Positions 33,086 through 55,056 of a stretch of 64,000 nt of DNA are shown here, piece after piece; within the stretch, counting starts at the first letter, position 1, and each line of letters opens with the position of its first letter. The position numbers were made by a program, and so were the translations under genes. This DNA comes from Dysidea avara (taxonomy: Eukaryota; Porifera; Demospongiae; Dictyoceratida; Dysideidae): the NCBI RefSeq assembly GCF_963678975.1, contig NC_089277.1, positions 22,289,440 to 22,353,439 on the forward strand, read 5' to 3'. The notes under the pieces are model-generated. The model was not told the DNA's origin, ran no database searches, and saw only the letters and a list, made by a program, of their open reading frames with translations.

Positions 33086-34800
33086 TTACAGTGAAAATAA
33101 ACAACATTTACTTTCAGCAATTTCAGGATATGCATAGTTATAGAAGTGTAAGTATTGATTCCAGACACCTTCTATAAACAAGTTTTCGAATGTGCTTTTT
33201 GCCAGTCCATACTGAGTGGTGTAAATTTTGCTAACTTTCTCTAGTTTTGCACACACCAATAAATCAGTGACAAATTGTCTAGGTGGAGACTTAGTAACTA
33301 CTATTGCAGTGACAATTGCATCTTTTTCATTATTATCATCTCTTAATTGAAACGTAAACATGTCAGTTATGTTGTGAGTAGTAGGGTCTTCAACTACATA
33401 GGTAACTACACAGCCTGGTACTGACAAACACAAGAAATAGTGTGAAAATTCTTCTTCAGATTTGAAGACTTGACTAATCTCAAACTTTGAACCATAACAG
33501 TTAACAAGGTTCAATGCTTCAGGAATGTCTTCAGGACTTATCCTTCTCAAGCCATTTGTTTTGGGTGTATCATATGGAATTGTATACCAAAAATTACTGA
33601 AAGGATAAACCCAGCAAGTAAATATAACTACTGGTTTAAGTATGAAAGGGACCATTGTACCAACTAGCAGTTGAGATATTCCACTCTTTTTTGTTTTACC
33701 TAGCATTTCTTTCAGTAATTCACTTGTTATCAGGGACATTTGATCATTAATTTCTGGATATAATTCAGGATAAAGTTCTACACATGAAGCTGAGAAATCA
33801 CAACCTCTTATGCTAATGGAATGAGGCACACTACTGCCAAATGTGCATTTTACATATTTGCTTGAAATCCCCACAGCATGAGTGTGATCATATTGAGGGT
33901 GATGAATGTACCATTTGTTAGCTTTTTTACATTCAAATGTCTCAGCTACATCTTTAGAATTCAGCCAAGTCCATTCAAGTCCTTCAGGTAAAAGAAAAGG
34001 GTCTTCCCTTGCACGATCTTTCAGTGGTTGCTCTATAGGTCCTACTTGTCCTACTTCTTGTCCACGCAATATAACAGGCAGCTTTGCCCATTTTTCCAGT
34101 GCAGGAATTGTAAATACACATCCAAGCAGGGGGCAAGATCTCTTTTTGCTCAATGTCAAATAAGCATTATAAGCATGATCAACATGAACCTGCCACACAA
34201 TGAACAATGATCCCACCATAATCTTGTAACATGTTAGTGTACCACTACCTAATTCAGTTTCTAAATAGAAGCGATGTTTGTGAAGCTCAGCAATTGTGTA
34301 TTGTCTAGGATCTACATCAATCTGCTCTGTAATAGAAATATGGCTGGGTTTCAAAGGTATCACAGGGATGAACGGCACTACTTCACTCAACTTCATACCA
34401 TAGAAAGTTTTCTTGAAATTTTGTAATGTTTCATGTGCTGTAGGTATCATAGAAGCAGTTACCATTGCTTCCATCATTCTGGTATCTAAGAAGTTCCAAT
34501 GTTGGGCTATTGTCAAAGTGGTACAAAGAGCTTGAAATGAGTTTACTTGTTCAATTTTAGGTACAATTTCACCAGATATACAAGCTTTTGGTGATAAAGC
34601 CTTTTCCAAACATGCATCTTGCAGAATGTTGAACTTACAACCAGAATTTTCAATCATTGTTTTAATACCTGAAGAGAGCTTCGAGAAAGCATAGTCAATG
34701 TCTTCTTCAGGAGAAAATGTTAAAGCAGCTGGTATAGATGTTGGTGGCAAAGTAACAGCTTGTGAACATATATTTTTTGCAGACTGAGTTGACAATAAAC
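33086..34800 (-). CDS. last exon: novel central domain fused to a reduced N-myristoyltransferase-like domain
   Basis: Acceptor ATGTATGTAG|G precedes 34800, and the exon reads 570 codons to a stop at 33086. It starts with two bases, matching the one-base overhang of the DEATH exon at 54760. Residues 1-230 form a domain I associate with sponge and cnidarian uncharacterised proteins (LDTRMMEAMVTAS, FYLETELGSGTL, IMVGSLFIVWQV). From about residue 235 it aligns by eye with N-myristoyltransferase: VGPIEQ..LPEGLEWTWL, LLVGTMVPFILKPV, DTPKTNGLRRISPEDIPEAL, VVEDPTTHNITDMFTF and the final 24 residues from NQYLHFYNYAYP to a terminal Leu. NMT uses its C-terminal carboxylate in catalysis, and that end is kept in length. 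The acyl-CoA loop and the NYVEDDDNMFRF-type substrate region are not recognisable, so the enzyme may be inactive. Confidence 0.75.
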
Positions 34801-34859
34801 CTACATACATAAAAGCAACTTTCAAGGAAGATTATAATTTCTCTATATATTATGTACAA

Positions 34860-36050
34860 AATATTGCATAATTGCTAATGCACACCACAATATCAAATAT
34901 TATACATATGTACATGTACGTTTGCTGGCCATTATACTTGGTGAAAAGGTTGTGAAATCAAAGGTTACAGCCAAGTAATGGTTGCAATGATGATAATGCC
35001 AACCATTTTTAATGATTAGTGTGTACATAAATAGCTTATAATAGTGCTAAAAGCTGTGCACACTACATGGTTACAGTATTATAGACTTTTAATATTAGGA
35101 TGTGTCAAGATACAAAGTATAGTGTGTCAAGTAGCCCACAACAGAGTAACATTAACCAAATTCACAACCATATGTGACCGTCTCAGCAAAAACCCGTCTA
35201 ATTCACACAACTGCCGATTTTTTTTCTCAGCATTACCTCTAGTGTCCAAGGAATGGACTGAAAATAAATTACAGGTGCTTCAGGGGTGTAGCCAGGATTT
35301 TTTGAAGTGGGGTTCCAACAGCAGTATTGGGTTACTAGAAGCAGGGGGCTGGGGGCACAGCCCCCAGCTGTGGAGACTCTCAGTTTAATGAATCAAAACT
35401 CAGCAAATTGCTATTTTATGCAAAAAGTATATTAATTATAATGCATAATGCTATAGGTATAATAATAATGCCCCTGCTAGTACTAGATAAAGCTACCTAG
35501 TGGAAACAGACAGCATAACACATAGAGACACATAATAATAAACTTGCGTATTTTTGTAGCATGCATAATTAATAAATATTTCATTTTTCTGGTTTTTGCT
35601 GAGATGGTCACATATGGCAGATAACTCGATCTAATTAAGTACACACTGAATACAATTCAACATGCTCATACTAGTAGTGTGTGCTTTTTAGCACTATACA
35701 CCTATGCTGAAATGCACACATGCACGCACAGAGGCTCCGTTTCTGGGATAACCAGATAGTTCGTGCACTGCTGTGGGTTTGCTACATAACTAAAACTCTT
35801 CTTGTAAGTAGAGTTAAGATGAGCGCTTTTTCAAGCTGATACCAGGCAGTGCTTTCAATAATTTCTGATGGGTTATGATAGAGAAGACAGTCAAATTTTT
35901 TTTTTAAATGTGGCATGATGTCCATGGTATATAAAACTAGCCATATTAGCATACCTTCATTCAGTAGCATTTCTCAAATAAAAAAGTGAATAGATTCTCT
36001 GATAGCAAAAAAAATAATTTAAGATTGGCTGCCTGGTTAAAAGAGAACCT
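34860..36050. other. intron with repeat remnants, no gene
   Basis: 34930-35010 holds a worn piece of the composite-repeat palindrome (GTGAAATCAAAGGTTACAGC). CAGGGGTGTAGCCAGGATTT at 35281 looks like one hAT-type end without partner. GCTGGGGGCACAGCCCCCAG near 35348 is a short GC-rich hairpin. Confidence 0.45.
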
Positions 36051-36057
36051 TTTCTAG

Positions 36058-36842
36058 CATTGGCATAGCCAAACCTGGGCAAGCCAATTAAGGCATTGCC
36101 CTGGCATCAGACTACTTTGCCCCACCATCAGCCACCCAGAGCAATTAAATGGATTAAAGTTAGCTAACCACTCCATATTGCACAAGAATAGATAGCACAA
36201 CTTACACAATACGAACCGTTCCAACATATTTCTTTCCAACAGAGATGGGGTTATTCAACGGATTATCCTCACAAGTAACTCAATTATGTACAAATAATAG
36301 GAGGCAATGAATAGAAACGAGAACTTGTGATTACAAAAACCCATGCAGCATTGTAACAAGGAGTGAAGGGAAAGGATTAGTATTAACTCTTCCAGTATTG
36401 TGGGATGGACAGTTAGCATTTGGATCAACTTGTGTAACTATCGGTGTGGTCAAAACTCGGATCAGAGAATAGAGGCGAGGTAGCATAGAGAGAGTTGAGG
36501 AATTAGCACCCATGCATCTAGCAGCATAGATACCATTTAGTGATAGTTCAAATGGTATGAAGTATTTGGTCAGTCAGCAATTGTTTTCTTTTTTGTTTCT
36601 AGGCTGACAACTTAGTGGCACTGGCAGGCATAGTCATCACGTGATACAACACTAAGCTTAGTCTGGCCTAGCGTTTGCTTAGAGTAGAAGGTAGTGTAGA
36701 TAAAGTACATGTAGTGACGCATACACATTTTAAAAATGCTGCATTGATGTCCATATGAAGATGGGCATGTGTATGTGTATTGCATGGTTGAATGGCTTGC
36801 CCACTCAGTGCCCAGACACGGCAAAGATCTGGCTACGCCACT
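36058..36842. mobile_element. possible 785 bp hAT-like element
   Basis: Left CATTGGCATAGCCAAACCTG and right GATCTGGCTACGCCACTG are imperfect inverses of the CAGTGGCGTAGCCAG type. Both ends are followed inward by GGGCAAGCC-like text. The flanking octamers TTTTCTAG and TTTCTCAG are only partly alike. No transposase. Confidence 0.4.
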
Positions 36843-36895
36843 GTTTCTCAGTATACATAAACAAAATGATGTAGGACTGTCTTACAGTTATTTGT

Positions 36896-37177
36896 AACAA
36901 GTACACATGGAATTTTCAACTAGAGTAGGGATCACAGCACGTTGATAAAAAGTACTGAAACAAGCTGGAGTAGTGAATCACAGTAAAACAATAACAAGTG
37001 TTATATCCCTACTGTGCTCCATCCAAGATACCATAATGGAATGATGCACAATAGGGATATAACACTTCTTATTGTCTTATTGTGATTTAATATCGTGCAC
37101 TACTCCAGCTTGTTTCAGTACTTTTTATCAATGTGCTATGGCCCCTACTCTAGTTGAAAATTCCTGTGTACTTGTTT
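36896..37177. mobile_element. 282 bp near-perfect foldback element
   Basis: Arms of ~115-120 bp run from AACAAGTACACATGGAATTT to its complement ending GTGTACTTGTT and include CTAGAGTAGGG and AAAAAGTACTGAAACAAGCT. The centre is ~45 bp around CTCCATCCAAGATACC. Relatives with the same GTAGGGAT..AGTGAAAC motif are at 25420-25530, 51792-52951 and 55561-55790. Confidence 0.8.
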
Positions 37178-37189
37178 GTTAACTTTTTT

Positions 37190-37960
37190 TGTAATGTTTT
37201 TGTAATTATTATGACTGGTGAACCCATGCATATACCACATCTGAAATGGTGCTGCACTCCCTAGCTATATCAATTATCATCTAAAAAGTGAAGTATCCAT
37301 TACACTTTGTTGTCAGCTACATTCAACCCATTACACAGCATTTCGAATCAAGGACTGATCAAAAAGCACCTCTGCAATCCACGGATACCGAAAGGAAAAA
37401 AAATGGTGCCATGCACCCCAGTTATATCAATTATCATCTGAAATGTGAAGTATCCATTATGCTTCGATGTTGGCTATGTTCAATCCGTTACACAGCATAA
37501 CGAATCAAGAACTGTTCGAAAAGCTGTGCCTCCACACAATCAAAATAACCACTATGAAAAATACAGATGATTTCCGTTACGAAGGGAAGCCATCACGTGC
37601 TACTGCCAAATCGACACTTTCCACTGTCAGCAAAGATGAATGGGACACAAAGGAGGACACTGGTAAGTCCATGAAGAATGCATTGTACGTACTGCAGTAT
37701 GCCAAAAGGCACCTGTCAGGTTGAAGCGACGTCGAACAGTGTAAAATCAAGCCCATAGCCTTACCCGTTATTGAGTTACACTTGTCTGAAGGAATCAGTC
37801 AGTCAGTTACTCAGTCAGTAGAAAATTCCGTTAAATAATTTAAAAAAAAAATTCCGTAACAACTTGTTGAAAGCATTTTGGGTCGATCTGAAAGCTTGTT
37901 TGAGCTTAGTTTTACCTAACCAATACTGCCTCATCATCAGGGAAAATTGAGGGTGTTTCT
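37190..37960 (+). repeat. dispersed repeat copy B (pair with 31376-32130)
   Basis: Starts TTATTATGACTGGTGAACCC near 37207 and ends ACCTAACCAATACTGCC near 37929. It contains an internal duplication of CACCCCAGTTATATCAATTA-type text (37257-37275 and 37418-37437). Small frames are broken differently from copy A, so I treat it as non-coding. Confidence 0.65.
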
Positions 37961-38299
37961 TGGGTGATGTTATTTCGTGGGACACACTTACTCCTTTGTG
38001 GTTCCTACTAGATATTGTAATGTATAATTGTTCTGTACTGCATGTACTTGGCATACAGCCATGTTTGTATGAAGCCATTTCTAAAGGAATAACTGAATAT
38101 CTAGTGTTTTCAGAGGTGAAAAATTCAGGTGTGCACCTCACAGCATAACGTCTGTCACTAGTGGTAGAAATCCTTATCAAGCATAGTGTAGACAAATTAA
38201 GTACTGAATACAACTAATTAGTACAAGTTCTTGTTAGTCAACAATCTGCTTCACATAAGTGTTCTTGGTTAATGTAGAAAACAAAGCGCAGTGTTCTGC

Positions 38300-38510
38300 A
38301 CCCTCTTCATTTCTTCCTAGCACACTCTTTCCACACATTTCTATCTTGGGAAAGGCAGTGCCAATCAGCCTCAGCAATACTGAACCTTTTCTGATCTTGT
38401 CTCTTTAATGGAGTTTGGCTCCATGTATATAGGCCAAGTCTGTGGCCATCACCCAAACATGTGCAGAAGCCTCTTAGGGATCCTAGCATCATTCATTCTT
38501 TGTTGTGACC
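38300..38510 (-). pseudogene. LINE reverse transcriptase C-terminal fragment
   Basis: The minus-strand frame from 38492 to 38307 contains GDGHRLGLYTWSQTPL and QKRFSIAEADWHCLSQDRNV followed by WKECARKK. It resembles the tail of craniofacial-development-protein-like LINE polyproteins, with the DWxxLSxDRxxW pattern. It appears to belong with the RT part at 39150-39930. Confidence 0.6.
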
Positions 38511-38524
38511 AAGCCAATGCAAAC

Positions 38525-38526
38525 AT

Positions 38527-38601
<75 letters not shown>

Positions 38602-38602
38602 T
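38525..38602 (+). repeat. (ACGC)n / (AC)n microsatellite
   Basis: About fifteen ACGC units run into a short (AC)n. Arg/Thr/His/Ala open frames across it are artefacts of the repeat. Confidence 0.95.
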
Positions 38603-38929
38603 GACGGATAGCAAATCTATTATAGATGTCTCTATTCCATCCACTTGTGAAAAGCAGCCTGATCAAACCAGAGACATGGCTGTGGTGTAAATGTGTAGGT
38701 ATTGGAGTGACTATCCATTCATGGTGAAAAGTGAACTTCACTGGTGCGTGCGTAGATCAATGATTTTCAAAAATTTGGTCACAAATGGTGTATGCATAGA
38801 TAATACCCACACCCTCTAGGGTCTGGGTATGTGTATTATCTGTGGTTTATGGTACTCTGTCTTAGCCTCTCCTCAGTACATGCGTTCATGAATTAAGCAC
38901 TACTTGAAGGCTATGTCTGTGTCTGGAAA

Positions 38930-39045
38930 CGAAGACTACTGTACAGAACAACAATACATAACTGTTGTATAAATGTAAAAGTTCATTTTGAAAATTTCCG
39001 AGTCCATGTCCATCCATACCTGCCTTTTCTAACTACCCGACCAAA
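38930..39045. repeat. one-sided copy of the 3494-4152 foldback end
   Basis: AACGAAGACTACTGTACAGA..TAACTGTTGTATAAATGTAA and then ATTTCCGAGTCCATGTCC..CCTTTTCTAACTACCC match the right arm of 3494-4152. The partner arm was not found. Confidence 0.6.
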
Positions 39046-39149
39046 CTATGTAAACAATGGTAATTTGTACCTAAGGCTTTGCTGAGCTACCATGGGTTAT
39101 GGAGGTAAATAGCGGTTACCAATTACGTGTAATACTGTGACATTTTTTT

Positions 39150-39930
39150 TACAGAAGGTATACCATTTGTTATTTTTCAATACTACTCAGCTCTAATCAT
39201 ACGCTTTCTTCCAGTTAACAAACAACATGAAAAGTTTACTGTGATTTTCAATGTTAAATTTATACATCCTCTGTCGCTACAAAAACCACACTGAGAATCA
39301 GACAGTAGTTTCTCAGCCATCTCTTGAAGTGTCTCTCAGGAACCTTGCCAAATAACTTTCCCATGGTATCCAATAAGCTAATCCCTCTCCAGTAACCACA
39401 CTATCCTTTCTTAGGTACTGATACCTCACATCACTCTTTCAGTACCTTTACCTCTTCCCTTACAGATCATGCATATACTCCAATAAATCAACATCACAAC
39501 ACTTCAGCAACTCAGGCAGTAAATCATTCTTACCAACAGCTCTTCCAGAATTTATACATGGAATAATCTTCTCTGAGATGGGTGAGTTCTCCATACAACC
39601 TCTTCAGGGCAGTAGAGGAATTGAGTCTATTGTAATCTCATTGAAAACACCGGAGACATTCAACACAGACCGAAAGTGCTCATGCCATCTCTTCAGTGTC
39701 CACCCACAACACAGCTGTCCATCAATCTGTCACAATGGCTTAGGTTGCACAGGTTGTATTCTGGCTCTGCCATGTCAAAATTTGCACACACTACACGCAT
39801 TGATCCACCATCAGCCACACCATGCTCAATGCTTGCTGTTGATACCAAGTGTTCTTACCATCTAAGCCACATACCTAAACCGCTCCCAATCTTCGAGGAG
39901 CTGGATATCAAATGGTACGGTAGTACCATT
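39150..39930 (-). pseudogene. LINE reverse transcriptase fragment (N-terminal half of RT)
   Basis: On the minus strand, several broken frames give LCCGWTLKRWHEHFRSVLN, then SVPKKG followed by YWRGISLLDTMGKLFGKV, then LFVNWKKAYD, the usual first blocks of a non-LTR RT (the palm Asp lies in the last). Stops and shifts are numerous. Probably from the same LINE family, perhaps the same insertion, as 38300-38510 and 53100-53900. Confidence 0.6.
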
Positions 39931-39949
39931 TAAGTAGGGATTGCAGTGA

Positions 39950-40700
39950 AACTTTCACACGCCGCCCAAAATTCTGCCTTTAAAATCATCTTAGAGACAT
40001 TTTACACAACCAAAATCACCTTTACGGAATAGTACTAGTCCATATAATACATAAAACAGCATTAAATACAACAAAATACTTACAGGTGGCCAGATATAAA
40101 ATTTCTAAACAAATCACCAAAAAACTCGAATTTTAGCCTCACTGCCTCACTCACTGATCACTCACTGATCACAGTCGCAAGGCTAGAGGTCAAACGAAGC
40201 AGTGCACGGCCACCATTTTACGCCACAATAACAAACTCACCAGTGGGATGTGCCTTTTGGGGTTCCGACGAGTGCAGGTCCTCTGTGCCTTGTCTCTTCT
40301 TTCATCTTCAATCGGGCTGCTTGTCTTTTTCTTCATACAACGAAACCATATTGAGGCATTAATTTTCCATAACAACACTTTCTTTAAGCAGCATAATAGA
40401 TTCCACAAGATTATTTAAAGCGCTTAAACTATGCTACTGTATGAAGGTACTGGTACTAGATAGCTACCTGTATCTTCACGATAGGTCACAAGATCAAATA
40501 ATAATAATCACGCCCATTCTTTGTTCTACGCATTATCGATCTATCGATTGAAACCACGATGACACACCCCTTTTACGCTAGGTGACGGAATAGCTAGTCA
40601 GTGACCACACACCTTCAAGTTGGAAGGCTAACTCTAATAATCAATTAAAGTCACGATGACCACGCCCTGTTTGGGCAAGCGCACATCTTTGCAGACTGAC
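39950..40700. other. unassigned DNA
   Basis: Contains a repeated CACTGATCACTCACTGATCA near 40150 and the minus-strand frame 40190-40408, which is basic and of no known family. CpG is slightly raised at 40180-40300. I see no supported gene. Confidence 0.35.
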
Positions 40701-40705
40701 TCAAG

Positions 40706-41569: not shown

Positions 41570-44500
41570 AACAGAATTCAAGAGATCAGTTAGAAATAAG
41601 TAACCTGTATAGAGATCAGTTACAAACAAATCACCCTGTAGAGAGTTCAGCTACAAACAATTCACCCTGTTCAGACATCAGTTAGAAGAAGTTTTCTTGT
41701 AGAGAGTTCAGTTACAAACAAATCACCCTGTTGAAAGATCAGCTAGAAGATGTCACCTTATAGATAGTTCAGTTACAAAGAAACCACCATGTAGAGAATT
41801 CAGCTACAAACTAGTGACCCTGTAGATACATCAGCTAGAAGAAGTTACCTTGTAGAGAGTTCAGCTACAAAGAAATCATTCTGTAAAGAGCTCAGCTACA
41901 AACAAATCACCCTGTAGAGAGATCAGCTAGAAGAAGTTACCTTGTAGATAGTTCAGCTACAAACAAATCATCCTGTAGAGAGATCAGCTAGAAGAAGTTA
42001 CCTTGTAGATAGTTCAGCTACAAACAATTCACCCTGTACAGAGCTCAGTTAAAAGAGGTTTCCTTGTAGAGAGTTCAGCTACAGACAAATCACCCTGTAG
42101 AGAGATCAGTTAGAAGAAGTTACCTTGTAGATCGTTCAGCTACAAACAATTCACCCTGTAAAGAGATCAGCTAGAAGAAGTTACCTTGTAGAGAGTTCAG
42201 CTACAAAGAAACCATCATGTAGAGAATTCAGCCGCAAACAAATCATGTATAGAGAGTTCAGCTACAAACAAATCTCCCTGTAGAGAGATCAGCTAGAATA
42301 AGTTTCCTTGTAGAGAGTTCTGCTACAAACAAATCACCCTGTAGAAAGATCAGCTAGAAGAAATCACCTTGTAGAGAGTTCAGCTTCAAAGAAGCAATCA
42401 TGTGAGAGTTCAGGTACAAACAAATTGTCCTGTAGAGAGATCAGCTAGAAGAAGTTACCTTGTAGAGAGTTCAGCTACAAAGAAACCATCATGTAGATAG
42501 TTCAGGTACAAACAAATCACCCTGTAGAAAGATCAGCTATAGAAGAAATCACCTTGTAGAGAGTTCAGCTATAAAGAAACTATCATGTAGAGAGTTCAAC
42601 TACAAACAAATCACCCTGTAGAAAGATCAGCTATAGAAGAAATCACCTTGTAGAGAGTTCAGCTACAAAGAAACCATCACGTAGAGAGTTCAGCTACAAA
42701 CAAATCGGCCTGTAGAGAGATCAGTAAGAAGAAATTACCTTGTAGAGAGTTCAGCTACAAAGAAACCATCATGTAGAGAGTTCAGCTGCAAACAAATCAC
42801 CTGTAGAGAGTTAAGCTACAAACAAATCTCCCTGTAGAGAGATCGGCTAGAAGAAGTCACCTTGCAGGGAGTTCAGTTACAAAGAAATAAACCATGTAGA
42901 GAGTTCAGCTGCAAACAAATCACCTGTAGAGAGTTCAGCTAGAAACAAGTCACCCTGTAGAGAGATCAGCTAGAAACAAGTCACCTTGTAGAGAGTTCAG
43001 CTAGAAGAAGTCACATTGTAGAGCTACTAACAAAGAAACTACCATGTAGAGTTCAGCTGCAAACAGATCACCCTGTAGAGAACTCAGCTACAAACAAATC
43101 GCCCTGTAGAAAGATCAGCTAGAAGAAGTTACCTTATAGGGAGTTCAGCTATGAACAGATCACCCTGTAGAGAGTTCAGCTACAAACAAATCACCCTGTA
43201 GAAAGTTCAGCTACAAACAAATCACCCTGTAGAAAGTTCAGCTACAAACAAATCACCCTGTAGAGAGTTCAGTTACAAAGAAACCACCATGTAGAGAGTT
43301 CAGCTGCAAAAAAATCAATCATTCTGTTGAGAGTTCAGCTAGAAGAAGTCACCTTGTAGAGAGTTAAGCTGCAAATAAATCACCCTGTAGAGAATTCAGC
43401 TACAAACAAATCACCCTGTAGAAAGATCAGCTAGAAGAAGTTACCTTGTAGAGAGTTCAGCTACAAAGAAACCACCATGTAGAGAGTTCAGCTGCAAACA
43501 AATCACCTGTAGAGAGTTCAGCTAGAAACAAGTCACCCTGTAGAGAGATCAGCTAAAAACAAGTCACCCTGTAGAGAGTTCAGCTAGAAGAAGTCACATT
43601 GTAGAGAGTTCAGCTACAAAGAAACTACCACGTAGAGAGTTCAGCTGCAAACAAATCATCCTGTAGAGAGTTCAGCTAGAAGAAGTCACCTTTTAGAGAG
43701 TTCAGCTACAAAGCAACCACCATGTAAAGAGTTCAGCTGCAAAAAACTCAATCATCCTGTAGAAAGATCGGCTAGAAGAAGTTACCTTGTAGAGAGTTCA
43801 GCTACAAAGAAACCACCATGTAGAGAGTTCAGCTGCAAACAAATCACCTATAGAGAGTTCAGCTAGAAACAAGTCACCCTGTAGAGAGTTCAGCTACAAT
43901 GAAACTCCCATGTAGAGAGTTCAGCTGCAAACAAATCACCCTGTAGAGAACTCAGCTACAAACAAATATGCAGTGTAAAAAGATCAGCTAGAAGAAGTTA
44001 CCTTGTAGAGAGTTCAGCTACAAACAAATCACCTGTAGAGAGTTCAGCTAGAAACAAGTCACCCTGTAGAGAGATCAGCTAGAAACAAGTCACCTTGTAG
44101 AGAGTTCAGCTAGAAGAAGTCACGTTGTAGAGAGTTCAGCTACAAAGAAACCACCATTTAGAGAGTTCAGCTGCAAACAAATCACCCAGTAGAAAGTTCA
44201 GCTATGAACAGATCACCCTGTTGAGAGTTCAGTTAGAAACAAGGAATCCTGTAGAGAGATCACCTAGAAGTATCGCCTTGTAGAGAGTTCAGCTACAAAC
44301 AAATCACCTGTAGAGAGTTCAGCTACAAACAAATCACCCTGTAGAGAGATCAGCTAGAAGAAGTCACCTTGTAGAGAGTTCAGCTATAAAGAAACCACCA
44401 TGTAGAGAACTCAGCTACAAACAAATCGCCCTGTAGAAAGATCAGCTAGAAGAAGTTACCTTCTAGGGATTTCAGCTACAAACAAATCACCCTGTAGAGA

Positions 44501-44594
44501 GTTCAGTTGCAAAGAAACCATTCTGTAAAGAGCTCAGCTGCAAACAAATCACTTGTACAGAATTCAGCTACAAACAAATCACCCTGTAGAGAGA
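41570..44594 (-). repeat. minisatellite array, inverted orientation, left part
   Basis: The reverse complement of the 20331-23440 monomer, for example GTAGAGAGTTCAGCTACAAA followed by CAAATCACCCT. The same variant classes occur (AGAAGAAGTTACCTT, AAGAAACCACCATGT, AAACAAGTCACCCT). It is cut at 44594 by the LTR element and resumes at 50351. Confidence 0.9.
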
Positions 44595-44794: not shown

Positions 44795-46795
44795 TCAAAC
44801 ATCTGCTTCTAACGGTATCAAATGCTGTATTGGACGCCTTAGATTGATGACTTTCTCCTTGCTTAGTACCTGAATCTTTGCTGATCTAACCTTTCCATCT
44901 CGTCCTTCTAGTGTTTCAGTCACCTTAGCTAATTTCCACAAACATTTGGCTGTTCCGTCTTCTTTTAGTATCACAATATCTCCAACTTGTATCCTCCTAG
45001 CATTGTCATTAGGTGTCTTGATTGCTCTTCGTTCTTGTAAGCTTAACAGATAATCTTTCTGCCATTGTCGAGTAAAACTGTTCAGCACACGAAATTGGTG
45101 TTTCGCTCGTTTAGTCAGTGTTTTGTTAGTACTTGAAACCTCAAATTGACATCCACTGGGTGTAGTAGCTAACCTTCGTCCATAGACTAAACTAGCTGGG
45201 GTTAGAGCATAGGACACACCTTCCTCATCATCCTGCACGTAGGTCAAGGGTCTATTGTTCAGTATTGCCTCTATTTCTGTAACAGTTGTCACCAACTCAT
45301 CAAACCTTAAAGTGGATTTTCCCACGACCTTCCTCAAGCAACGTTTCACACTTCTAACCATTCTCTCCCAAAATCCCCCCCACCAGGGGGCCTTCTCTGC
45401 AATAAACATCCATCGGATCTGTTTGTTTGTCAGGTGTTGATGGACTTCTTCTGATCGTACCACCTTCATCACTTCCTTAGCACAATGCTTAAACGTTTTT
45501 GCATTATCTGACATAACAAGTGATGGTACTCCTCTCCTGCTACAAAAACGTCTGAAAGCTAACAAGAAAGTGGTAGATGTCATGCCATCAGTAACCTCTA
45601 AATGCAATGCTCGAGTGGAGGCACACGTAAATAAACAAATGTATGCCTTACTACTCTGTGTCCCTGCACCACTCCGAACATACAAAGGTCCAGCAAAATC
45701 TACCCCTATATTGTTGAAGGGTGGGTCTTCACTTACTCGCTCAGTTGGAAGATCAGGTATCTGTGGTCCGGAGTATGGTCTACCTTCATAACGTCTGCAT
45801 ACATTACATCGTCTTATAATCTTCTTTACAGCTTCACGGCCTCTGAAAATCCAGTAATGTTCACGTAAGGAAGCCAATGTCTCTGAAACACCATTGTGAT
45901 GCACTAATTTGTGACTCTCTCTAATTAACAGCTCAGTAAAGTAGTGTTTTGTTGGTAACAATACTGGGTACTTCATAGTTTCTGATAGGTTTGCATTACC
46001 TAAGTGTCCTTTACAACGGATAAATTTCTGATCACTTAAAAACAATTGGAATTGCCTCTTGTAGGTAACTGTCTTACCCTTCTGTAATTGTTTGTGCTCT
46101 TCTGGGAAGGAGTTCTTCTGTATTGATCTGATCCATAGGTTCTCAGCCTCTCTCAATTCCTCACCATTCAAATCTTTTGATACTTCTGTTCCGTTTTTAG
46201 ATTTCAACAAGTTGGCAAATTTCAACACAGTTCCCGTCACTCTTAACAGTTTAAGCTTAGAATTGTACCTTTTCAGGTCAAATATGGCTTCAAGATTTAA
46301 AACTGCATCTCTGTCTTCTGCAACTGATACCATCGAGTGTACTATGACTGGTGAGTTCTTCACTAATTCTGCACTAGCCGCTGTACATTCATATTGTGTG
46401 GGGTGATCAGGCCACTTGTCAGGATCTTGTTTCAAAAAATTTGGACCATTCCACCATAGCTCATTGGATATCAGCTCACTAGCTGTACACGATCTGGATG
46501 GTATGTCTGCTGGATTCTTCAATCCTGGGCAAAATCTCCAGTTCTCTCCCGTAAACTGGCGTATCTCTGCTACTCGAATCTGTACGTACTGCTTCCAATG
46601 GCGGTGGTTTTTGATCCAGCACAACACTGTCATTGAGTCTGTCCAACAGTATACTTGTGGCCTTATAGGCAGAGACTTCAAGATAGTATTGACCAAACGA
46701 GAAAGTATGGTAGCTCCCAACAATTCTAGCCTAGGTATGGTTTGCCCTTTTATAGGTGCAACACGGGTTTTTGATGCCATTACACATGTACTCAC
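44795..46795 (-). CDS. BEL/Pao pol, C-terminal frame: RNase H end and integrase
   Basis: 666 codons. Residues 1-100 are the end of RNase H (IPRLELLGATILSRL, YCWTDSMTVLCWI). A zinc-binding HHCC module follows (H296, H299, C330, C333). The integrase core has D366 in GVDFAGPLY, D430 in VMSDNAKTF and E477 in WWGGFWERMV, then LNNRPLTY. A C-terminal domain has a GDIVILKED..W start and ends at 44795. All expected catalytic residues are visible. The frame begins just after the single-base shift near 46817-46823. The M at 46795 is probably not a real start. Downstream (44725-44794) is a short 3' region before the LTR. Confidence 0.88.
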   Translation of the reverse strand: MSTCVMASKTRVAPIKGQTIPRLELLGATILSRLVNTILKSLPIRPQVYCWTDSMTVLCWIKNHRHWKQYVQIRVAEIRQFTGENWRFCPGLKNPADIPSRSCTASELISNELWWNGPNFLKQDPDKWPDHPTQYECTAASAELVKNSPVIVHSMVSVAEDRDAVLNLEAIFDLKRYNSKLKLLRVTGTVLKFANLLKSKNGTEVSKDLNGEELREAENLWIRSIQKNSFPEEHKQLQKGKTVTYKRQFQLFLSDQKFIRCKGHLGNANLSETMKYPVLLPTKHYFTELLIRESHKLVHHNGVSETLASLREHYWIFRGREAVKKIIRRCNVCRRYEGRPYSGPQIPDLPTERVSEDPPFNNIGVDFAGPLYVRSGAGTQSSKAYICLFTCASTRALHLEVTDGMTSTTFLLAFRRFCSRRGVPSLVMSDNAKTFKHCAKEVMKVVRSEEVHQHLTNKQIRWMFIAEKAPWWGGFWERMVRSVKRCLRKVVGKSTLRFDELVTTVTEIEAILNNRPLTYVQDDEEGVSYALTPASLVYGRRLATTPSGCQFEVSSTNKTLTKRAKHQFRVLNSFTRQWQKDYLLSLQERRAIKTPNDNARRIQVGDIVILKEDGTAKCLWKLAKVTETLEGRDGKVRSAKIQVLSKEKVINLRRPIQHLIPLEADV

Positions 46796-49700
46796 CGTTC
46801 CATCATTATAAGCAGACTCAAATAAACGACTGCTGCATAGGCCTTTTCTGAGGCATCACTAAATCCATGAATTTCCAATGTGGCAGGCGTCAGCTCTCTG
46901 ATGTGATAATATCTTGGGACGTTTATCTGTGACATCACGTCTAGGTCATTTGTAAACTGCTCCCACTTAGTTAATGATAGTTCAGTTAACGTTTGGTCCC
47001 AATCCACCTTGTCCTTACACAAAATCTGGAACAGAATCTTGGCTGCAATGATAATTGGACTAAAGAGTCCTAGCGGATCAAACAATTTAGAGGATGTCTT
47101 CAAGACTGACCGCTTAGTAGGTGGTAATGACTTGGCAAACATCATGACATCTTTAAAACTGAAGTGTAAATCATCTGTTTTTGTATCCCAGGTAAGACCA
47201 AGTATCTTAACACCTTCAACTTCACTTGGAATTGTGGTATTATCTGTGGAATCAATTTTTTGCTGTAAGGACTCTGAATTGGTTCTCCACTTGCGGAGGT
47301 TGAATCCTCCACTTGCCATGAGTTGTCTGGCCTTCTCATATGTATGGATTCCTTGTTCTTCATTTTGCACACCACAGATGAGATCATCTACATAAAAAGA
47401 CTGTGACAGTAATTCTGCCATCTCTGGTTCCTTAAGCAGAAAACGGGTCAAGTGGTATTGGATTGTTTCTGTCAAAATTGCTGGACTAGGTGTTAAACCA
47501 AATACTAGTCGACAAAATCGGTATTGTATTACCTCGGGCCTTGGCTTCAAAATGTCATCAATCCACAAAAATCTCAGAGCATCACGATCCTTTGGGTCTA
47601 TGACAATTTGATGGAATGCCTTTTCTATGTCAGCAGTAAGACCAATTGGGTGACTTCGAAAGTTCAAGAGTAAATTAAATATGTGCGGTATCCCATTTGG
47701 TCCTTTCTCTAAGCAGTCATTTAATGAAAGTGATGTTTTGTTGGCTTTGGCTGATGCATCAAAGACAATTCTCAATTTGGTGGTCTCTCTGTCAGTCTTT
47801 ATGACAGCATGGTGAGGTAAAAAATAACAGCCATCTTGGTATGTTTTGCTAGGGATATGCTCTATAATACCATCCTGTACCTGCATCTTGAAAGTTGCGT
47901 CATACTGTTGAAATAGAGATTTATCCCTTTGTAACTTGCTTCTTAACTGATTGAGTCTAGCCATGGATATTTCATAACCATTGCCTTGAGGTCTGAAATC
48001 TGTTTTCCAAGGAAGAGTGACCTGGTATCTGCCCAGGATCCAATCATATTTCAAATCAACAAACAAAGAACTCATGGAAGCCGTCTGGGTTTCTTCAGCT
48101 ATACCGATTGACTCGGTCTCCCAGAAACGGTGCAAGTCATTACTCAAATCTTGGTCACTACACTGTTCACTGAGTGAACCAACTCCTTCTATTACCAAAT
48201 TAGACAATGCATAATTCACTTCTTTGTTTCCTGCATTGACTGGTCCAGATAGAAGCCATCCAAACTTGCTACTCACAGCAGTTGGCCCTTCATTTCCACG
48301 TTTAATGTCTCCAGTGACAATATCCCAATAGAAATCTGATCCAATGAGCATATCAACTTTGTCAGACGAATACTTGGAAGCACTTGTATCTGCTAGGTCT
48401 AATTCTTGTAAGTGGGAATATTGCTGTGGCTGGACAGGTATTTGCAATGGTGAACAGATGGCATGGTAGCTTAGTGCTGTAATCTCTACATCCTTGCCTT
48501 GCTTTGCTTGCAGTCTAACTTTAACCAAGTCACATTTTTTCTTATTGAACTCTTCACTTCCGAATGTGTTCACCGTCAAAGTTTCTTGTTTCAGGGGTTT
48601 CAATTTCAGCCTCATCTTTAGCTCATTAGACAGATATGAGCGCTGACTTCCAGCATCCATCAGTATTCTCACAGGTACTAAATCACTATTTGCTGTGTAG
48701 GCAAAAGTGCGAGCAGTCTGTAGTAAAACTTCATTCTTGCACCTTGCTACTGTGGTTACTTTGGGTGTGGAGGTGTCACTTCCTTCGGTGGTACCACTGG
48801 CCTCTTTGGGTGGCTCTGGAGCAATATTCTGTTCATACAGGGACTGATGGTGCTTCCTTCCGCACTTACGACATCGCCTATTCACAGAACATTCAGAAAC
48901 ACGGTGACCATTACTCAAACAAAGAAAACAACAACCTTCTCTTTTCAATACTGCCACCCTTCCTGAAATAGTATTTATCTTTTCACAGCTGGCTGAATAA
49001 TGTTCAGCTTTGCAAAATATACATTGCACCTTACGCTTCGACTTATCCTCTTGCACTAGTAAGGAAGCTGCAGTGGGCGGTGGCAATCTCTTTTGCTGGT
49101 CCATATTTCTGGTATCAAAAAATTTCATGCTCTCACTCATTTCCCTGGCTTCAACTTCATTCTTTATTACCTCCAAGAGTTCATCCACAACCCATACATC
49201 CCTCTTTGTAAGTCGAGCTATCTGTAGACGGATGTTGTATGGTAACTTGGTCATTATCACAGGGATCAATAAACAACCATATTGTTCACGGGCAATTCCT
49301 AACGCTTCAAGTGCTCGGACATTCACATTAATTTTGTCGTACACTAAACGAATCTGAACAGCTTTATCTCCATTACAGTTAGGTAGTTTCACAAGTTCTT
49401 CCATGTGGGCTGCGATGATGTTTTGTTTCTTCCCAAATCGTTCCTTTAGCAACTCCAAAGCTGCTGCATAGTTACCTTCCGACAGTGTGAGTCCTTGTAT
49501 TGCACTGGCCGCAGGTCCTTCTACAAGTCCCTTGAGGTAATTAAACTTGTCAATCACTGATAAATCAGGATTTTGATGTACTGCAGAAGTAAAGCTTTCC
49601 CAAAATGACTGAAAATGAATTACCTCTCCGGAAAATTTAGGCAGGTACAACTTTGGTAACTTAGGTCTAACTCTACTTTCATCTAACCTTGGAGTGTTTC

Positions 49701-50064
49701 TTCGAGTGATTTCGCTCGTCTCTGTAACGGAAGCATCGGTAGACATACCAACTGGCAACGTATCGGGCTTCTTAAGATATGCTTTGATCTCGCCACATAA
49801 TTGTGAAACCTTATCAGCAATAGCTTCCGCCTCCAGCACATCATTCTCGATTTCTTTCACGTCTATTAATGTAACCATATCTTCATCAAAACCTCGTAAT
49901 ACCTTGAGCTTTTCTGTTAACTGTTCGTCGATAATACGTAAACGAGTGATAGATTTCTCAACTCTTTCTCCTTCAAGCAACGAAGCAGCTTCCTTTATCA
50001 ACCTGGTTACAACTCCACGGTGGCCCTTTCTTCGTTGCTTCAGTCTTTCTAACTGTTCACACAT
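46792..50064 (-). CDS. BEL/Pao gag-protease-RT-RNase H frame
   Basis: 1090 codons from ATG at 50064. In order: an N-terminal helical part rich in charged residues (1-110); a DUF1759-type gag region (140-290; LPKLYLPKFSGE, FQSFWESF, YLKGLVEGPA); Cys/His knuckles (348-405; CIFC..H..C, CFLCLSNGH..C, CRKCGRKHH); an aspartic protease with DAG at ~470 followed by SQRSYLS; the reverse transcriptase (745-900) with TADIEKAF and YVDD at ~891-894; and the start of RNase H (HGFSDASEKAYAAVVYL). Homology switches frame near 46817-46823, and the last dozen residues before the stop at 46792 are out of frame. A lost base, rather than programmed frameshifting, is the simplest reading, since the site lies within a domain and lacks a classic slippery heptamer. 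Confidence 0.9.
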   Translation of the reverse strand: MCEQLERLKQRRKGHRGVVTRLIKEAASLLEGERVEKSITRLRIIDEQLTEKLKVLRGFDEDMVTLIDVKEIENDVLEAEAIADKVSQLCGEIKAYLKKPDTLPVGMSTDASVTETSEITRRNTPRLDESRVRPKLPKLYLPKFSGEVIHFQSFWESFTSAVHQNPDLSVIDKFNYLKGLVEGPAASAIQGLTLSEGNYAAALELLKERFGKKQNIIAAHMEELVKLPNCNGDKAVQIRLVYDKINVNVRALEALGIAREQYGCLLIPVIMTKLPYNIRLQIARLTKRDVWVVDELLEVIKNEVEAREMSESMKFFDTRNMDQQKRLPPPTAASLLVQEDKSKRKVQCIFCKAEHYSASCEKINTISGRVAVLKREGCCFLCLSNGHRVSECSVNRRCRKCGRKHHQSLYEQNIAPEPPKEASGTTEGSDTSTPKVTTVARCKNEVLLQTARTFAYTANSDLVPVRILMDAGSQRSYLSNELKMRLKLKPLKQETLTVNTFGSEEFNKKKCDLVKVRLQAKQGKDVEITALSYHAICSPLQIPVQPQQYSHLQELDLADTSASKYSSDKVDMLIGSDFYWDIVTGDIKRGNEGPTAVSSKFGWLLSGPVNAGNKEVNYALSNLVIEGVGSLSEQCSDQDLSNDLHRFWETESIGIAEETQTASMSSLFVDLKYDWILGRYQVTLPWKTDFRPQGNGYEISMARLNQLRSKLQRDKSLFQQYDATFKMQVQDGIIEHIPSKTYQDGCYFLPHHAVIKTDRETTKLRIVFDASAKANKTSLSLNDCLEKGPNGIPHIFNLLLNFRSHPIGLTADIEKAFHQIVIDPKDRDALRFLWIDDILKPRPEVIQYRFCRLVFGLTPSPAILTETIQYHLTRFLLKEPEMAELLSQSFYVDDLICGVQNEEQGIHTYEKARQLMASGGFNLRKWRTNSESLQQKIDSTDNTTIPSEVEGVKILGLTWDTKTDDLHFSFKDVMMFAKSLPPTKRSVLKTSSKLFDPLGLFSPIIIAAKILFQILCKDKVDWDQTLTELSLTKWEQFTNDLDVMSQINVPRYYHIRELTPATLEIHGFSDASEKAYAAVVYLSLLIMMER

Positions 50065-50202
50065 GGCGGCGATCTTGGGTGCGTACTCTCAGCTGGGATC
50101 TTTCTACAAGTACAGCCGAGAACAACAAATCTATACGAAACACACGGACTACCTTTCGGGGTGCCTATTCACACCCGGCACCAAGGAATTCAGGACTCGG
50201 CT

Positions 50203-50220
50203 GCCCCACGTTGGGCGCCA
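50203..50220 (-). promoter_or_regulatory. primer-binding site, tRNA-Lys type
   Basis: Immediately inside the 5' LTR on the minus strand lies TGGCGCCCAACGTGGGGC. It would pair with the 3' end (including CCA) of a tRNA-Lys. By established knowledge this 18-mer class primes several retroelements via tRNA-Lys1,2. Confidence 0.85.
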
Positions 50221-50350
50221 TGTAACGAAGAAACGAAACGCGTGTTGACCGCCATGTTATTCTAATTAATGTGTCAAGAAAAAAAGGGGCGCATGCGTAA
50301 TAATGCTAATTAGCTACAACAGCAAAATAATGGCCTAATTGTCTATAACA
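50221..50350 (-). repeat. 5' LTR of the BEL/Pao element
   Basis: 130 bp, base-for-base the same as the 3' LTR. Followed at 50351 by the AGAGA target duplication and the continuing minisatellite (AGAGATCAGCTAGAAGAAAT). Confidence 0.95.
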
Positions 50351-50960
50351 AGAGATCAGCTAGAAGAAATTACCTTGTAGATAGTTCAGCTACAAACAAA
50401 TCACCCTATAGAAAGATCAGTTAGAAGAAGTTACCTTGGAGAAAGTTCAGCTACAAAGAAACCATTTTGTAAAGAGCTCAGCTGCAAACAAATCACCTGT
50501 ACAGAATTCAACTATGAACAAATCACCCTGTAGAGAGATCAGCTATAAGAAGTTACCTTGTAGATAGTTCAGCTACAAACAAATCTCCCTGTAGAGAGAT
50601 CAGCTAGAAGAAATTACCTTGTAGAGAGTTCAGCTACAAAGAAACCACCATGTAGAGAGTTCAGCTGCAAAGAAATCACCCTGTAGAAAATTCTGCCAGA
50701 AACAAATTGCCCTGTAGAAAGATCAGTTAGAAGAAGTTACCTTTTAGAGAGTTCAGCTACAAAGAAACCATTCTGTAAAGAGCTCAGCTGCAAACAAATC
50801 ACCTATACAGAATTCAGCTACAAACACATCACCCTGTAGAGAGATCAGCTAGAAGAAGTTACGTTGTAGATCGTTCAGCTACAAACAATTCACCCTGTAG
50901 AGAGAGCAATTAGAAGAAGTCACCTTGTAGAGTGTTCAGTTACAAAGAAACCACCATGGA
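50351..50960 (-). repeat. minisatellite array, right remainder
   Basis: About twenty 31 bp monomers continue the array cut at 44594. The last monomer ends ACCACCATGGAGATTTCTG near 50965. Confidence 0.9.
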
Positions 50961-50985
50961 GATTTCTGTAATCAATATAATATTA

Positions 50986-51224
50986 TGTGACCGGATTTGC
51001 GAAAAGGGGTCTTCCACACACATCCAATTCCGTAACCATTGGAGACCATAACTCAGTGTTCAAGTAACATACTAACCTGAAAATTTCACCACGTATTCAG
51101 CTATAGTGGTGCTCACCACTGTCCAAAATTCAAGGCAATAACTCTTTCCAATCTGACGTTATCAATTGTCAAAGTTGGCAAATTGGATGTGTGTGGAAGA
51201 CCCCTTTTCGCAAATCCGGTCACA
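50986..51224. mobile_element. 239 bp TA-flanked miniature element, 44 bp perfect ends
   Basis: The first 44 bases (TGTGACCGGATTTGCGAAAA...) are exactly complementary to the last 44 (51181-51224). TA flanks at 50984-50985 and 51225-51226. The interior is unique. It is absent from the equivalent spacer of the left copy at 20100-20330, so it inserted into this copy only. Confidence 0.88.
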
Positions 51225-51392
51225 TATGTATTATACAGTATATATAATTTGTACATTTACTGATAAAATATTTAAAGTACATCTACTTCATCTTTTCTTC
51301 TTCCTGTAGTAAAGAAAAAAACATAGGTTAAAAAAGTCCCAAAGCTGGCCATAGGCCGGCTTTGGGGTATACAAATACAAAAAGAAATGAAA

Positions 51393-51710
51393 TCTAATCC
51401 AAAACAGCCAAGCTGTAAAAAAAGTGTGCGGCCCTCAGAAAGGCTATGGTGAAAAAAGATGTGAAATCCAAGGTGGCGGCCAAGAAATGGCTGTGATGGT
51501 AGGTTAATAGTAAAAATTTTAATAATGACAATTTAGGTAAATTTTGTGAAGCGGCACAAAAATTCACCTGAATTGTCGTTATTAAAATTTTTACCATTAA
51601 CCTACCATCACAGCCATTTCTTGGCCGCCACCTTGGATTTCACATCTTTTTTCACCATAGCCTTTCTGAGGGCCACACACTTTTTTACAGCTTGGCTGTT
51701 TTGGATTAGA
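51393..51710. repeat. 318 bp palindrome (composite repeat head, second copy)
   Basis: Arms from TCTAATCCAAAACAGCCAAG to the complement ending GGATTAGA, with centre AAGCGG. Very similar to 19769-20098. Followed directly by the dispersed CCTAATACAGCAGTCACCCT motif pair (51711-51747). Confidence 0.85.
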
Positions 51711-51791
51711 TACCCTAATACAGCAGTCACCCTAATAGACAGTCACATGTTTATAGCTAACTGTATGCTTTAACAAAAATTAAACAAACTA

Positions 51792-52951
51792 GTATATTAA
51801 AAATTATAAGTTTAAAAATGAAGTAGGGATCCAAGCGGTAGAAAGTAGTGAAACAAAAGATGAACGATAGTAGCTATTACAGTATGGCTCGGTGGGAAAT
51901 CCCTACTTTGGCATTGGACACAAAACAATTGCTATAACATGTCAAAGTAGGGATTTTCTACTGAGCTATGCTGTAATAGCTACTATCGTTTTGTCATACT
52001 GGATAATCAAAAGAGCCATCCAACCCCAATATCATCGGGAGTTCCTCAAGGCACGGTGCTAGCTCCACTGCTCCTTCTATTGTACATAAATGATTTACCT
52101 TCTCGAGTACACTCTTCTAAAGTAAAGTTGTATGCTGATGATGTATTAATCTACTGCTACATTAAATCTGAAACTGATTGTCATGCATTACAAGAAGACC
52201 TAGATGCTTTCGCACAATGGGCACATATTTGGCAGATGGAGTTTAACCCCAGCAAATGTGAATTCTTGAGAATTACCAATAAGAAAAATCCCATTGTCTT
52301 TAATTACTGCACTACTGCATTGAAGCTGTACCTATTGGCCAAGTTGCTCATACCAAATACCTTGGTGCAACAATTTCAAGTAACCTTTCATGGAATGAGC
52401 ATGTCCAAAGGATTACCAACAAGGCCAAACAAGTAAACAACTTTTTGTATCGTAACTTACGCGAATGTCCTATTCACATTAAATGTAATTGTTTTGTGAG
52501 AACTGCTGCTAGATTTTGCTTTAATGAATTTTTGAGATATTCAAGTGTTACTAACATGTTGTCTTCTCTTAATTTACCATTGTTAAAGGCAAGCTAAATT
52601 AAGTACTTTTTACAAAATAATTATCGGATATTTGATTGTGCCTACAGATGATCTTACCCCTAAACTTTCAAGTTTAAGGAGTGGCTACTACCACCAACCA
52701 ATGACACTAATTAATGCATACAAATTTTCCTTTTCCCCATCAACCATCAAATTATGGAACCAACTCCCTGCTGATGTAATTAATTCCTCTACCCCTAATG
52801 AGTTTTGTAATAACTTAAGTAACTTTTATGATCACACCTGTGCGTTATAATCTTTTGATTGAGAAATATAATATAATAATCGTTCATCTCTCGTTTCACT
52901 ACTTTTTACCGCTTGGATCCCTACTCGTTTTTAAATTTATAATTAATATAC
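51792..52951. mobile_element. 1160 bp foldback-family element carrying a LINE fragment
   Basis: Inverted ends of ~75 bp: GTATATTAAAAATTATAAGT..AGTAGGGATCCAAGCGGTAG at the left, and the complement ACCGCTTGGATCCCTACTCG..TTATAATTAATATAC at the right. The left arm contains its own hairpin (51860-51992). Between the ends lies a reverse-transcriptase fragment. Related, empty members are 36896-37177 and 55561-55790. Confidence 0.7.
52030..52860 (+). pseudogene. Jockey/CR1-type reverse transcriptase fragment
   Basis: Across frames: SSGVPQGTVLAPLLLLLYIN, KLYADDVLIY (the RT YxDD box), QMEFNPSKCEFLRI, then after a shift HTKYLGATISSNLSWNEHV, RTAARFCFNEFLRYSSVTNM, and finally FSFSPSTIKLWNQLP with the end near 52850. 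It is 5' truncated and shifted at least twice, so dead. Its 3' end coincides with the right inverted end of the surrounding element. Confidence 0.75.
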
Positions 52952-53099
52952 TTTAATTATACGATTCTTCTTTGTAATCAGAAGCTGAAGCTCCAAGTAT
53001 GCCTCAACAAACCAGTCTGGTTGTCCACCTCTCAGACAGTAACTCAGTAGTTTCAGCATTAAACTGTTTACATACACCATCATCTCATAGGAGAGTTAC

Positions 53100-53900
53100 A
53101 GTGTACTTCCTTCTCTAGAATTGTCCTGCACGACGCATCCTCACTTTTAGTCCCAACTTAGTACAAAGCAACTTATGGTCAATCCAGCAGTCTGCACAGC
53201 ATCAAACACTCACATCGTGATACAAGGATCTATCAGTTTGAGGCATAATGATGTAATCAATACAGTGCCAATGTTTTGTTCCAGGATAGTGCCAATGTTT
53301 CATGCCAAGTATGCTTAAACACTGGCCTTCTCATACATTGTATTCATCACAGCTAATTCATTCAGAGCACACCAATGACCAAAAATTCTTACCACCTGGC
53401 ATCTTCATTCATTTCTCTAACTTCATGATAACCACTGACATCATGCCACACCAAGTCTTCCATCTAGTAGTACTTCCAACCCTAGCATTAAAATCACCCA
53501 TTAGTATCATTAAAATAGGACTGGAACCCAATCCTGGAGAACCACTTTCTCAGTCAACAATAGCCTTAAAGTAAAGACACAGTGTTCTAATCTCACCAGC
53601 ATCGCTCCATGTCCTACATGTCAAGAACAATGCCAACACCCTTGCCACATTGAATCACATCACAAGCTGCTAGCAAAGGTCACTCAGAGTGCATCACAGT
53701 ACAACCATCCTCCAAATACACTGCTTGGCCAAACCACTTAGCTTTACTGATTCCCACCATATTCATTTTAAATCTCTTCAGCTCTCACACTTTACGATTA
53801 GCCTCCAAGGTCTAGACATGCCAGTACAAATGTCACCATTAGCCTCCACAAGGGTTCTAGCATTCCAGGCTTCCAGCACGGTAACTAGCAGGGTGCTTCA
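53100..53900 (-). pseudogene. LINE endonuclease fragment
   Basis: The minus strand gives WNARTLVE near 53850, MGDFNARVG near 53490, and CWIDHKLL with MRRAGQF near 53150-53180. These are the start, DxN and SDH-type blocks of an exonuclease/endonuclease/phosphatase domain of a craniofacial-development-protein-like LINE. Many stops and shifts. The RT part of such an element lies at 39150-39930 on the same strand. Confidence 0.6.
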
Positions 53901-54086
53901 CTTGTCTCACCACAGCCTGACTTCTAGTGTGAAATTGATACACATCTCACAACACTAATATAGTGAGACTCTGGTGTACTTCACCAGGCCACTAACTAAA
54001 AACCAGAACAGAAACCAAATGACAGCTAGGTTGCATCACCGGTTGTGGTAGACACTAACAAAATTGTTACTGCCCGCCAGGCACTC

Positions 54087-54089
54087 CAC

Positions 54090-54187
<98 letters not shown>

Positions 54188-54190
54188 ACA
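54087..54190 (+). repeat. (CA)n microsatellite, ~50 units
   Basis: A nearly pure CA run, interrupted by one G near its left end and one T near its right. Cys-Val and His-Thr open frames across it are artefacts. Confidence 0.97.
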
Positions 54191-54759
54191 TCTTTTGATC
54201 ATCTCCAACACTCTCCACAAGAATGTGGATGTTCCAAGTGGCAAATGAGATGGACTCAGAGCAAAGACTGTGCCCTGAAAATAAGTTAGACACTCTAATC
54301 ATACTAGTGCAAAAACACAAACACTCAACCTCAAGTAGCAAGCTTGAAGCAATTAAGTAAACTGCTTTAAAGAACTGAACTACTCCACACATTCTAAAAA
54401 GCAGCCGTCAGCATTCGCCAGCAACTTATGTTGCTGCCCAGGAACCACCACAAGGAGGTGCTGACATGGTGCACACGCGTGCACACGACACATCAGAATT
54501 TAATTGTCACTCTCATAAATTACTAATTTTCTTTAACAGTATTCATGCACAAATGCTAAACAGCATATGTAACAATTTGCACGGTTGCATTAGCTGAGAA
54601 ATCCAAGAATATAATGTATGATAGCAAAATTTCTGCATACTACACATAACGTAGCCAAATGACGTATGCTTTATCTACTACTGATAGTTATAAACAGATG
54701 CTGTAAATACTGTAGGTATACTTTGTTACCAGCAGATGTTCTCTTTGTTACACACTTAC

Positions 54760-55056
54760 CTTCACTAATTGATTTCAGTTTTTGCTCAATTTCATTTGCA
54801 AGTCCATCCAATTCAATGCTAGGCTGCCTCAAAGCTTGTATCAGCTGGTTCCATGATGCTGAGGGTTGTTTCTTAAGCCACAATTGAAACATTTGTGTAC
54901 AACATGTACTCGCATCCTTGGGATAGTTGCTCTGAATTTCATCCAACTTGCCACAGTCATCATCATCAAGGAGTTCAATTCCCAAATCATACCACTTTGA
55001 ACTGACAGACTTCTTAACTAATCTGTTAAGTAGTTTGAGGGTGGGACTATTCTTTC
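54760..55056 (-). CDS. DEATH-domain exon (upstream exon of the NMT-like gene)
   Basis: Acceptor GATTTTATAG at 55057 and donor GAAG|GTAAGTG at 54760/54759 bound 297 bases. The protein contains KNSPTLKLLNRLVKK, SKWYDLGIELLDDDD, QMFQLWLKKQPSASWNQLI and LDGLANEIEQKL: the six-helix pattern of a DEATH domain, with the W of helix 2 and the central L-x-x-W-L block. DEATH domains pair with other DEATH domains in immune and cell-death adaptors. The exon ends with one base and the exon at 34800 begins with two, giving an in-frame Gly. At least one earlier exon is needed, since it begins with a two-base overhang; I did not find it. Confidence 0.78.

Follow-up and report, generated by a model that had tools for sequence, protein, structure and literature searches.

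A predicted DEATH-domain gene with a TRADD-N-like module and an N-myristoyltransferase fold in the sponge Dysidea avara, and its expanded family

The window analyzed here is a stretch of 64,000 nucleotides from Dysidea avara (G000:C6:22289440-22353439), taken from a surveyed genome of 550.8 Mb in 108 contigs. On its minus strand lie two exons that are predicted to form one gene, in which a DEATH domain precedes an N-myristoyltransferase (NMT)-like domain:

54760-55056, minus strand: DEATH-domain exon (P0002), 98 whole codons, identified by Pfam Death, its splice sites and its likeness to P0006
34801-54759, minus strand: intron of 19,959 bases (GTAAGT...TAG) with mobile elements, predicted from sequence
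33086-34800, minus strand: large 3′ exon with a TRADD-N-type module, the NMT-like domain and the stop codon, identified by its identity to P0003 and an AlphaFold2 model
34379-34699, minus strand: death-fold-like helical bundle, residues 34-140
34106-34351, minus strand: TRADD-N-like alpha/beta domain, residues 150-231, with an invariant G196-S197 in the b2-b3 turn
33089-34105, minus strand: NMT-like domain, residues 232-570, identified by Pfam, PDB matches and the model
33707-33787, minus strand: eroded region corresponding to the oxyanion/acyl-CoA loop, residues 338-364
39534-39594, minus strand: alternative 5′ exon that opens NCBI isoform X2 (P0003), beginning MENSPISEK, with donor GTAAGA and skipping DEATH (tblastn, 100%)

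The DEATH exon opens with two bases after an AG and closes with one base before GTAAGT, and a TAG lies directly 5′ of the large exon. When joined, the two exons give a single frame of 669 codons with one terminal stop; the phases, splice sites and open frame are those claimed in the initial annotation. The open frame of the large exon is not due to chance, since its stop-free run of 581 codons compares with at most 201 in 30 mononucleotide-shuffled versions of the window. This exon is 100% identical (tblastn) to residues 20 to 591 of P0003, the D. avara protein named "glycylpeptide N-tetradecanoyltransferase-like isoform X2" by NCBI. P0003 was the sole NCBI model seen at the locus, and its product lacks DEATH; because it uses the 5′ exon at 39534-39594, the splice from 54760 to 34800 is predicted rather than observed. 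The alternative exon sits in what resembles a dead LINE or LINE relic, and the DEATH-less isoform may reflect either regulation or a model artefact. The D. avara paralogue P0006 reads ...KSISEGLLSTQSAK..., which is the identical junction between DEATH and the large exon, and its DEATH part is 85% identical to the DEATH exon. Together with the DEATH exons found 5′ of other copies (below), this supports the proposed fusion of DEATH to an NMT-like domain. A search of the window with the N-terminus of P0006 did not find a first coding exon 5′ of DEATH.

The predicted 20-kb intron contains a BEL/Pao element, a reverse-transcriptase fragment and two 31-bp repeat arrays, which are listed here with the other features of the window:

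44798-50088, minus strand: frames of a BEL/Pao-type retrotransposon (RVT_1, Peptidase_A17, integrase zinc binding), in the predicted intron
51951-52433, plus strand: reverse-transcriptase fragment (RVT_1, 66.8 bits), in the predicted intron
20422-23439, 41604-44593 and 50351-50962: related 31-bp tandem repeat arrays of ∼98, 97 and 20 copies, the first oriented opposite to the other two
5477-5851 and 30011-30361, plus strand: Dpy19-family exons for the C-terminal end, a nearly identical pair (86.5 and 85.6 bits) and likely a local duplication
62734-63192, minus strand: reading frame carrying a QRICH1-type domain (56.5 bits), perhaps a Crypton relic
55935-55995, plus strand: tRNA-like Rfam match (32.1 bits, slightly above the cut-off of 29)

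The DEATH exon scored 30 bits against Pfam Death (cut-off, 22.6); its PDB matches to FADD were weak (best E, 0.078), and neither of the window's two exons had a Pfam match to NACHT or LRR. The middle part of the protein had been described as a novel domain of ∼230 residues. Instead, it appears to be a known kind of module, in which a death-fold-like bundle (a weak match) is followed by a domain that, judged from profile comparisons, is likely TRADD-N-like. A novel domain is not supported; the order Death-like, TRADD-N and variable C-terminus is described for Amphimedon (PMC8195603). The module has the RRM/ACT-like alpha/beta fold of the TRADD-N superfamily and the tiny-Ser/Cys motif: G196-S197 is invariant in 110 sequences, lies between strands 188-194 and 199-205, and is replaced by GC in many module-only relatives. 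When aligned to NCOA6 with hhalign, profiles of 60 and 26 module sequences gave 88.9% and 62.7% (decoys, ≤0.73%) over 37 aligned columns, and the 110-sequence family profile gave 11.5%. In a column-shuffle control of the first hhalign comparison, 16 of 300 shuffles scored at least as high as the actual profiles; we did not rely on this control because some shuffles scored impossibly (above 130). Pfam gave no match to the middle domain in the window copy and no TRADD, Death or CARD match spanning it in the relatives scanned, Foldseek with the module alone gave a best E of 0.12, and the absence of TRADD among the 50 VIA entries listed for the module counts as an absence only. In single-sequence tests, the NCOA6 domain scored 1.0 bits (reached by 94 of 2,000 shuffles), the DEDD2 domain had its score reached by 577 of 2,000 shuffles, and the TRADD domain gave no score.

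The assignment of the C-terminal part to the NMT fold held up. The large exon scored 59.3 bits against Pfam NMT_C (cut-off, 27.9), all 42 PDB sequences that it matched were N-myristoyltransferases (best E, 1.4e-12), and its AlphaFold2 model (mean pLDDT, 86.7) overlays human NMT1 and has the two-half GNAT fold of NMT. The domain was thought to be shortened, but the modeled fold is complete, with residues 232-570 aligning to HsNMT1 115-496 at ∼25% identity over 328 residues.

To compare relatives, we drew on 120 of the 198 proteins that a first protein search found. The resulting alignment (A1; n = 110) holds the window translation and 109 of the 120 listed proteins, leaving out the redundant P0003 and ten apparently short or partial sequences; all family members with NCBI names among the matches listed are from D. 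avara. The window protein lacks the acyl-CoA binding loop HKKLRSKR, as do nearly all 110 relatives, with a mean of 0.85 basic residues in the CoA loop of A1 members versus 5 in each of two canonical NMTs. At the position of the catalytic Thr282, the window protein has Gly, and Thr occurs in 5 of the 110 aligned members; the lid (Ab loop) motif YVE[DE] occurs in none. The last residue of the window protein aligns to HsNMT1 496, and tail lengths vary widely among relatives (23 of 110 have a two-residue tail after F568 like that of the window protein). Because Thr282, the lid motif and the basic residues of the CoA loop are mostly lost in A1 and tail length varies, the NMT part of the window's clade is read as a putative pseudoenzyme.

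The family is large in D. avara. Scoring of all 53 candidates gave 48 NMT_C matches above the cut-off, and 36 near-full-length module-plus-NMT exons, with clusters on C3, C4, C6 and C9, were selected from 78 matches (76 of 138 candidates scored), with split and partial ones left out. With all 135 candidates scored, the module itself occurred at 107 places, 58 of which were taken as module-only exons; as a protein query, it retrieved 111 proteins, 108 of them with an NMT Pfam domain. DEATH is present in P0006, P0009 and P0139 and its second half in P0013 and P0023, i.e., in five of the six NCBI-named D. avara members seen, with P0003 as the lone exception. Within 30 kb of the 36 NMT-like exons, a DEATH exon lay upstream on the same strand in at least 19 cases, downstream on the same strand in 4 and on the opposite strand in none; the scoring covered 150 of 858 DEATH candidates, which makes 19 a lower bound. 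The corresponding counts within 40 kb of the 58 module-only exons were 23, 0 and 0. Three module-only loci (L047, L049 and L052) have the order module exon, CARD-like exon and second module-like exon, and the single CARD match in module-only loci was below the cut-off (E = 0.021).

Phylogenies built from the module and from the NMT part, both rooted with L046, recover two clades. Support was 1.0 and 0.99, respectively, for clade I, which includes the window gene, and 0.92 and 0.64 for clade II, which comprises the C3 cluster and others. With 150 of 858 DEATH candidates scored, we located a DEATH exon for 18 of the 19 clade I copies and 1 of the 17 clade II copies; 16 of the 17 copies with none found belong to clade II. 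A CARD-like exon lies 5′ of one clade II copy (L073) but is under the cut-off (18 versus 23.9 bits), and no significant DEATH match was seen in the 5 kb upstream of that copy or the 4 kb upstream of L046. The clades also differ in the acyl-CoA loop, which had been called unrecognizable. This is true of clade I, yet clade II retains an H-x-K-Y-x-x-K-R-like loop (KR in 13 of 16 copies and exact HKKYxxKR in 5), for which reason we dropped the notion that all copies lack it; some members may thus still bind acyl-CoA or act. L046 (C1:63389145; L046:216-2258, minus strand), a frame of 681 codons, combines a divergent module with an NMT domain that is better preserved and includes HKKYGGKR (NMT scores, 96 and 102 bits); it is a possible intermediate. 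A separate, apparently ordinary multi-exon NMT seems to exist at C3:773913-775676.

We estimated dN/dS from 69 pairs with more than 55% identity, drawn from 33 copies. The medians of 0.23 for the module (69 pairs) versus 0.41 for the NMT N-half (68 pairs) and 0.38 for the NMT C-half (69 pairs) indicate that the proteins are maintained by purifying selection, with less constraint on the NMT part. Average values gave no sign of diversifying selection, with dN/dS below 1 in the NMT part as well. In A1, module identity exceeded NMT N-half identity in 5,978 of 5,995 pairs (mean, 62% versus 32%), and entropy peaked in the CoA-loop region, reaching 3.01 bits over residues 346-360. Judged from these alignments, the family layout is one of a constant module half and a variable NMT half. 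The halves may not always have traveled together: well-supported groups within clade II conflict between the two trees, and dS differs between the halves in several pairs (0.28 for the module versus 1.4 for the NMT N-half between the window gene and L013; 0.22 versus 0.85 between L031 and L034), which suggests gene conversion or exchange.

The simplest reading of these data, we infer, is a death-fold adaptor that senses through its NMT fold. As the best explanation, held with moderate confidence, we propose a death-fold signaling protein whose NMT fold serves as a pseudoenzyme receptor with an immune or cell death output. The predicted protein would run from DEATH through a second death-fold-like bundle and the TRADD-N-like domain to an NMT fold derived from a duplicated NMT. 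This fold would now bind a peptide, an acyl group or a protein, and binding would be relayed via the TRADD-N-like domain, leaving DEATH free to assemble with other death-fold proteins and yield the signal. Paralogues with a constant signaling half and a variable NMT half would form a repertoire, and the DEATH-less first exon may give a regulatory isoform. The suggestions of the initial annotation, an immune adaptor and binding to glycine peptides, acyl groups or effectors, remain at the level of inference.

It is unlikely, although the NMT fold is complete, that some copies are active or semiactive effector acyltransferases that, upon death-fold assembly, acylate host or microbial proteins with an altered donor or target. 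Clade II and L046 keep the HKKY..KR-like loop, and in the window protein and L046, as in human NMT, the YNY-x-[YC] motif is followed by 13 residues. Kaur et al. list enzymatic effector domains at the same position (PMC8195603). Against this, the 110 closest relatives have lost the catalytic Thr, the lid motif and the CoA-loop charges, and their C-termini vary; trimming of the HsNMT1 C-terminus by 2 or 3 residues lowers kcat/Km to 2.3% or 0.4% (PMC7048800). Still less probable is a structural scaffold or inhibitor, in which the NMT fold merely stabilizes the module or serves as a decoy or dominant regulator of the ordinary NMT; the loss of the active site within a conserved fold and the apparent separate NMT would fit, but recognition better fits dozens of diverging copies whose variability is greatest near the former ligand sites. 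We give the least credence to a DEATH exon that belongs to another or dead gene, with the large exon used solely with other first exons: isoform X2 begins at 39594, the required 20-kb intron holds several mobile elements and no first coding exon was found 5′ of DEATH, but the phases match, the junction in P0006 is identical and an upstream DEATH exon on the same strand accompanies 18 of the 19 clade I copies.

Extending the pseudoenzyme-receptor reading, we tentatively raise a broader idea that we consider less likely than not. Sponges may possess a separate intracellular receptor repertoire in which a variable NMT fold, not leucine-rich repeats, binds N-terminal peptides or acyl groups, with DEATH (clade I) or CARD-like (clade II) output through a TRADD-N-like switch and diversification by duplication and by exchange of module and receptor halves. 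The family may be an unrecognized class of immune sensors. NMT is, to our knowledge, an essential enzyme that stands alone; in this early-branching animal, dozens of loci join its fold to death-fold signaling. If the NMT part is indeed a receptor, it would add a new recognition fold to animal immunity and offer a good test of how enzymes evolve into receptors: one genome holds side by side an apparently ordinary NMT (C3:773913), the single frame L046 with its higher NMT scores and CoA-like loop, and two clades, one that keeps the loop and one that lacks it.

We found no paper on a death-domain/NMT architecture among the titles and abstract openings of the matches listed. In D. avara exposed to foreign symbionts, a transcript annotated as glycylpeptide N-tetradecanoyltransferase, which is not tied to one gene, is reported to be lower at 5 h (PMC11229196). 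Like human NMT1/2, the window protein has the complete fold with both halves; unlike them, it is fused and expanded, and its clade lacks the CoA loop, catalytic Thr and lid motif and has C-termini of varying length. D. avara also has NLRD proteins (DEATH-NACHT-LRR; 25 among 126 bona fide NLRs), which share with this family a DEATH domain, a presumed recognition part and expansion in the same genome (PMC12909245); the putative recognition part here is instead an NMT fold, and "myristoyl" and "tetradecanoyl" are absent from the main text of that paper. A close parallel is with the Death-like/TRADD-N proteins of marine invertebrates in the NCOA6 clade (PMC8195603), in whose main text "myristoyl," "acetyltransferase" and "GNAT" do not occur. 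Kaur et al. (2021) proposed there that TRADD-N holds flanking domains inactive until a signal arrives. The window protein has the make-up of such proteins, with Death-like domain(s), a likely TRADD-N and a variable C-terminus in an expanded family. Both share the order of a Death fold, a TRADD-N-like domain and a variable, fast-evolving C-terminus, as well as a large lineage-specific expansion in a sponge, and they differ in that the C-terminus of the window protein is an NMT fold.
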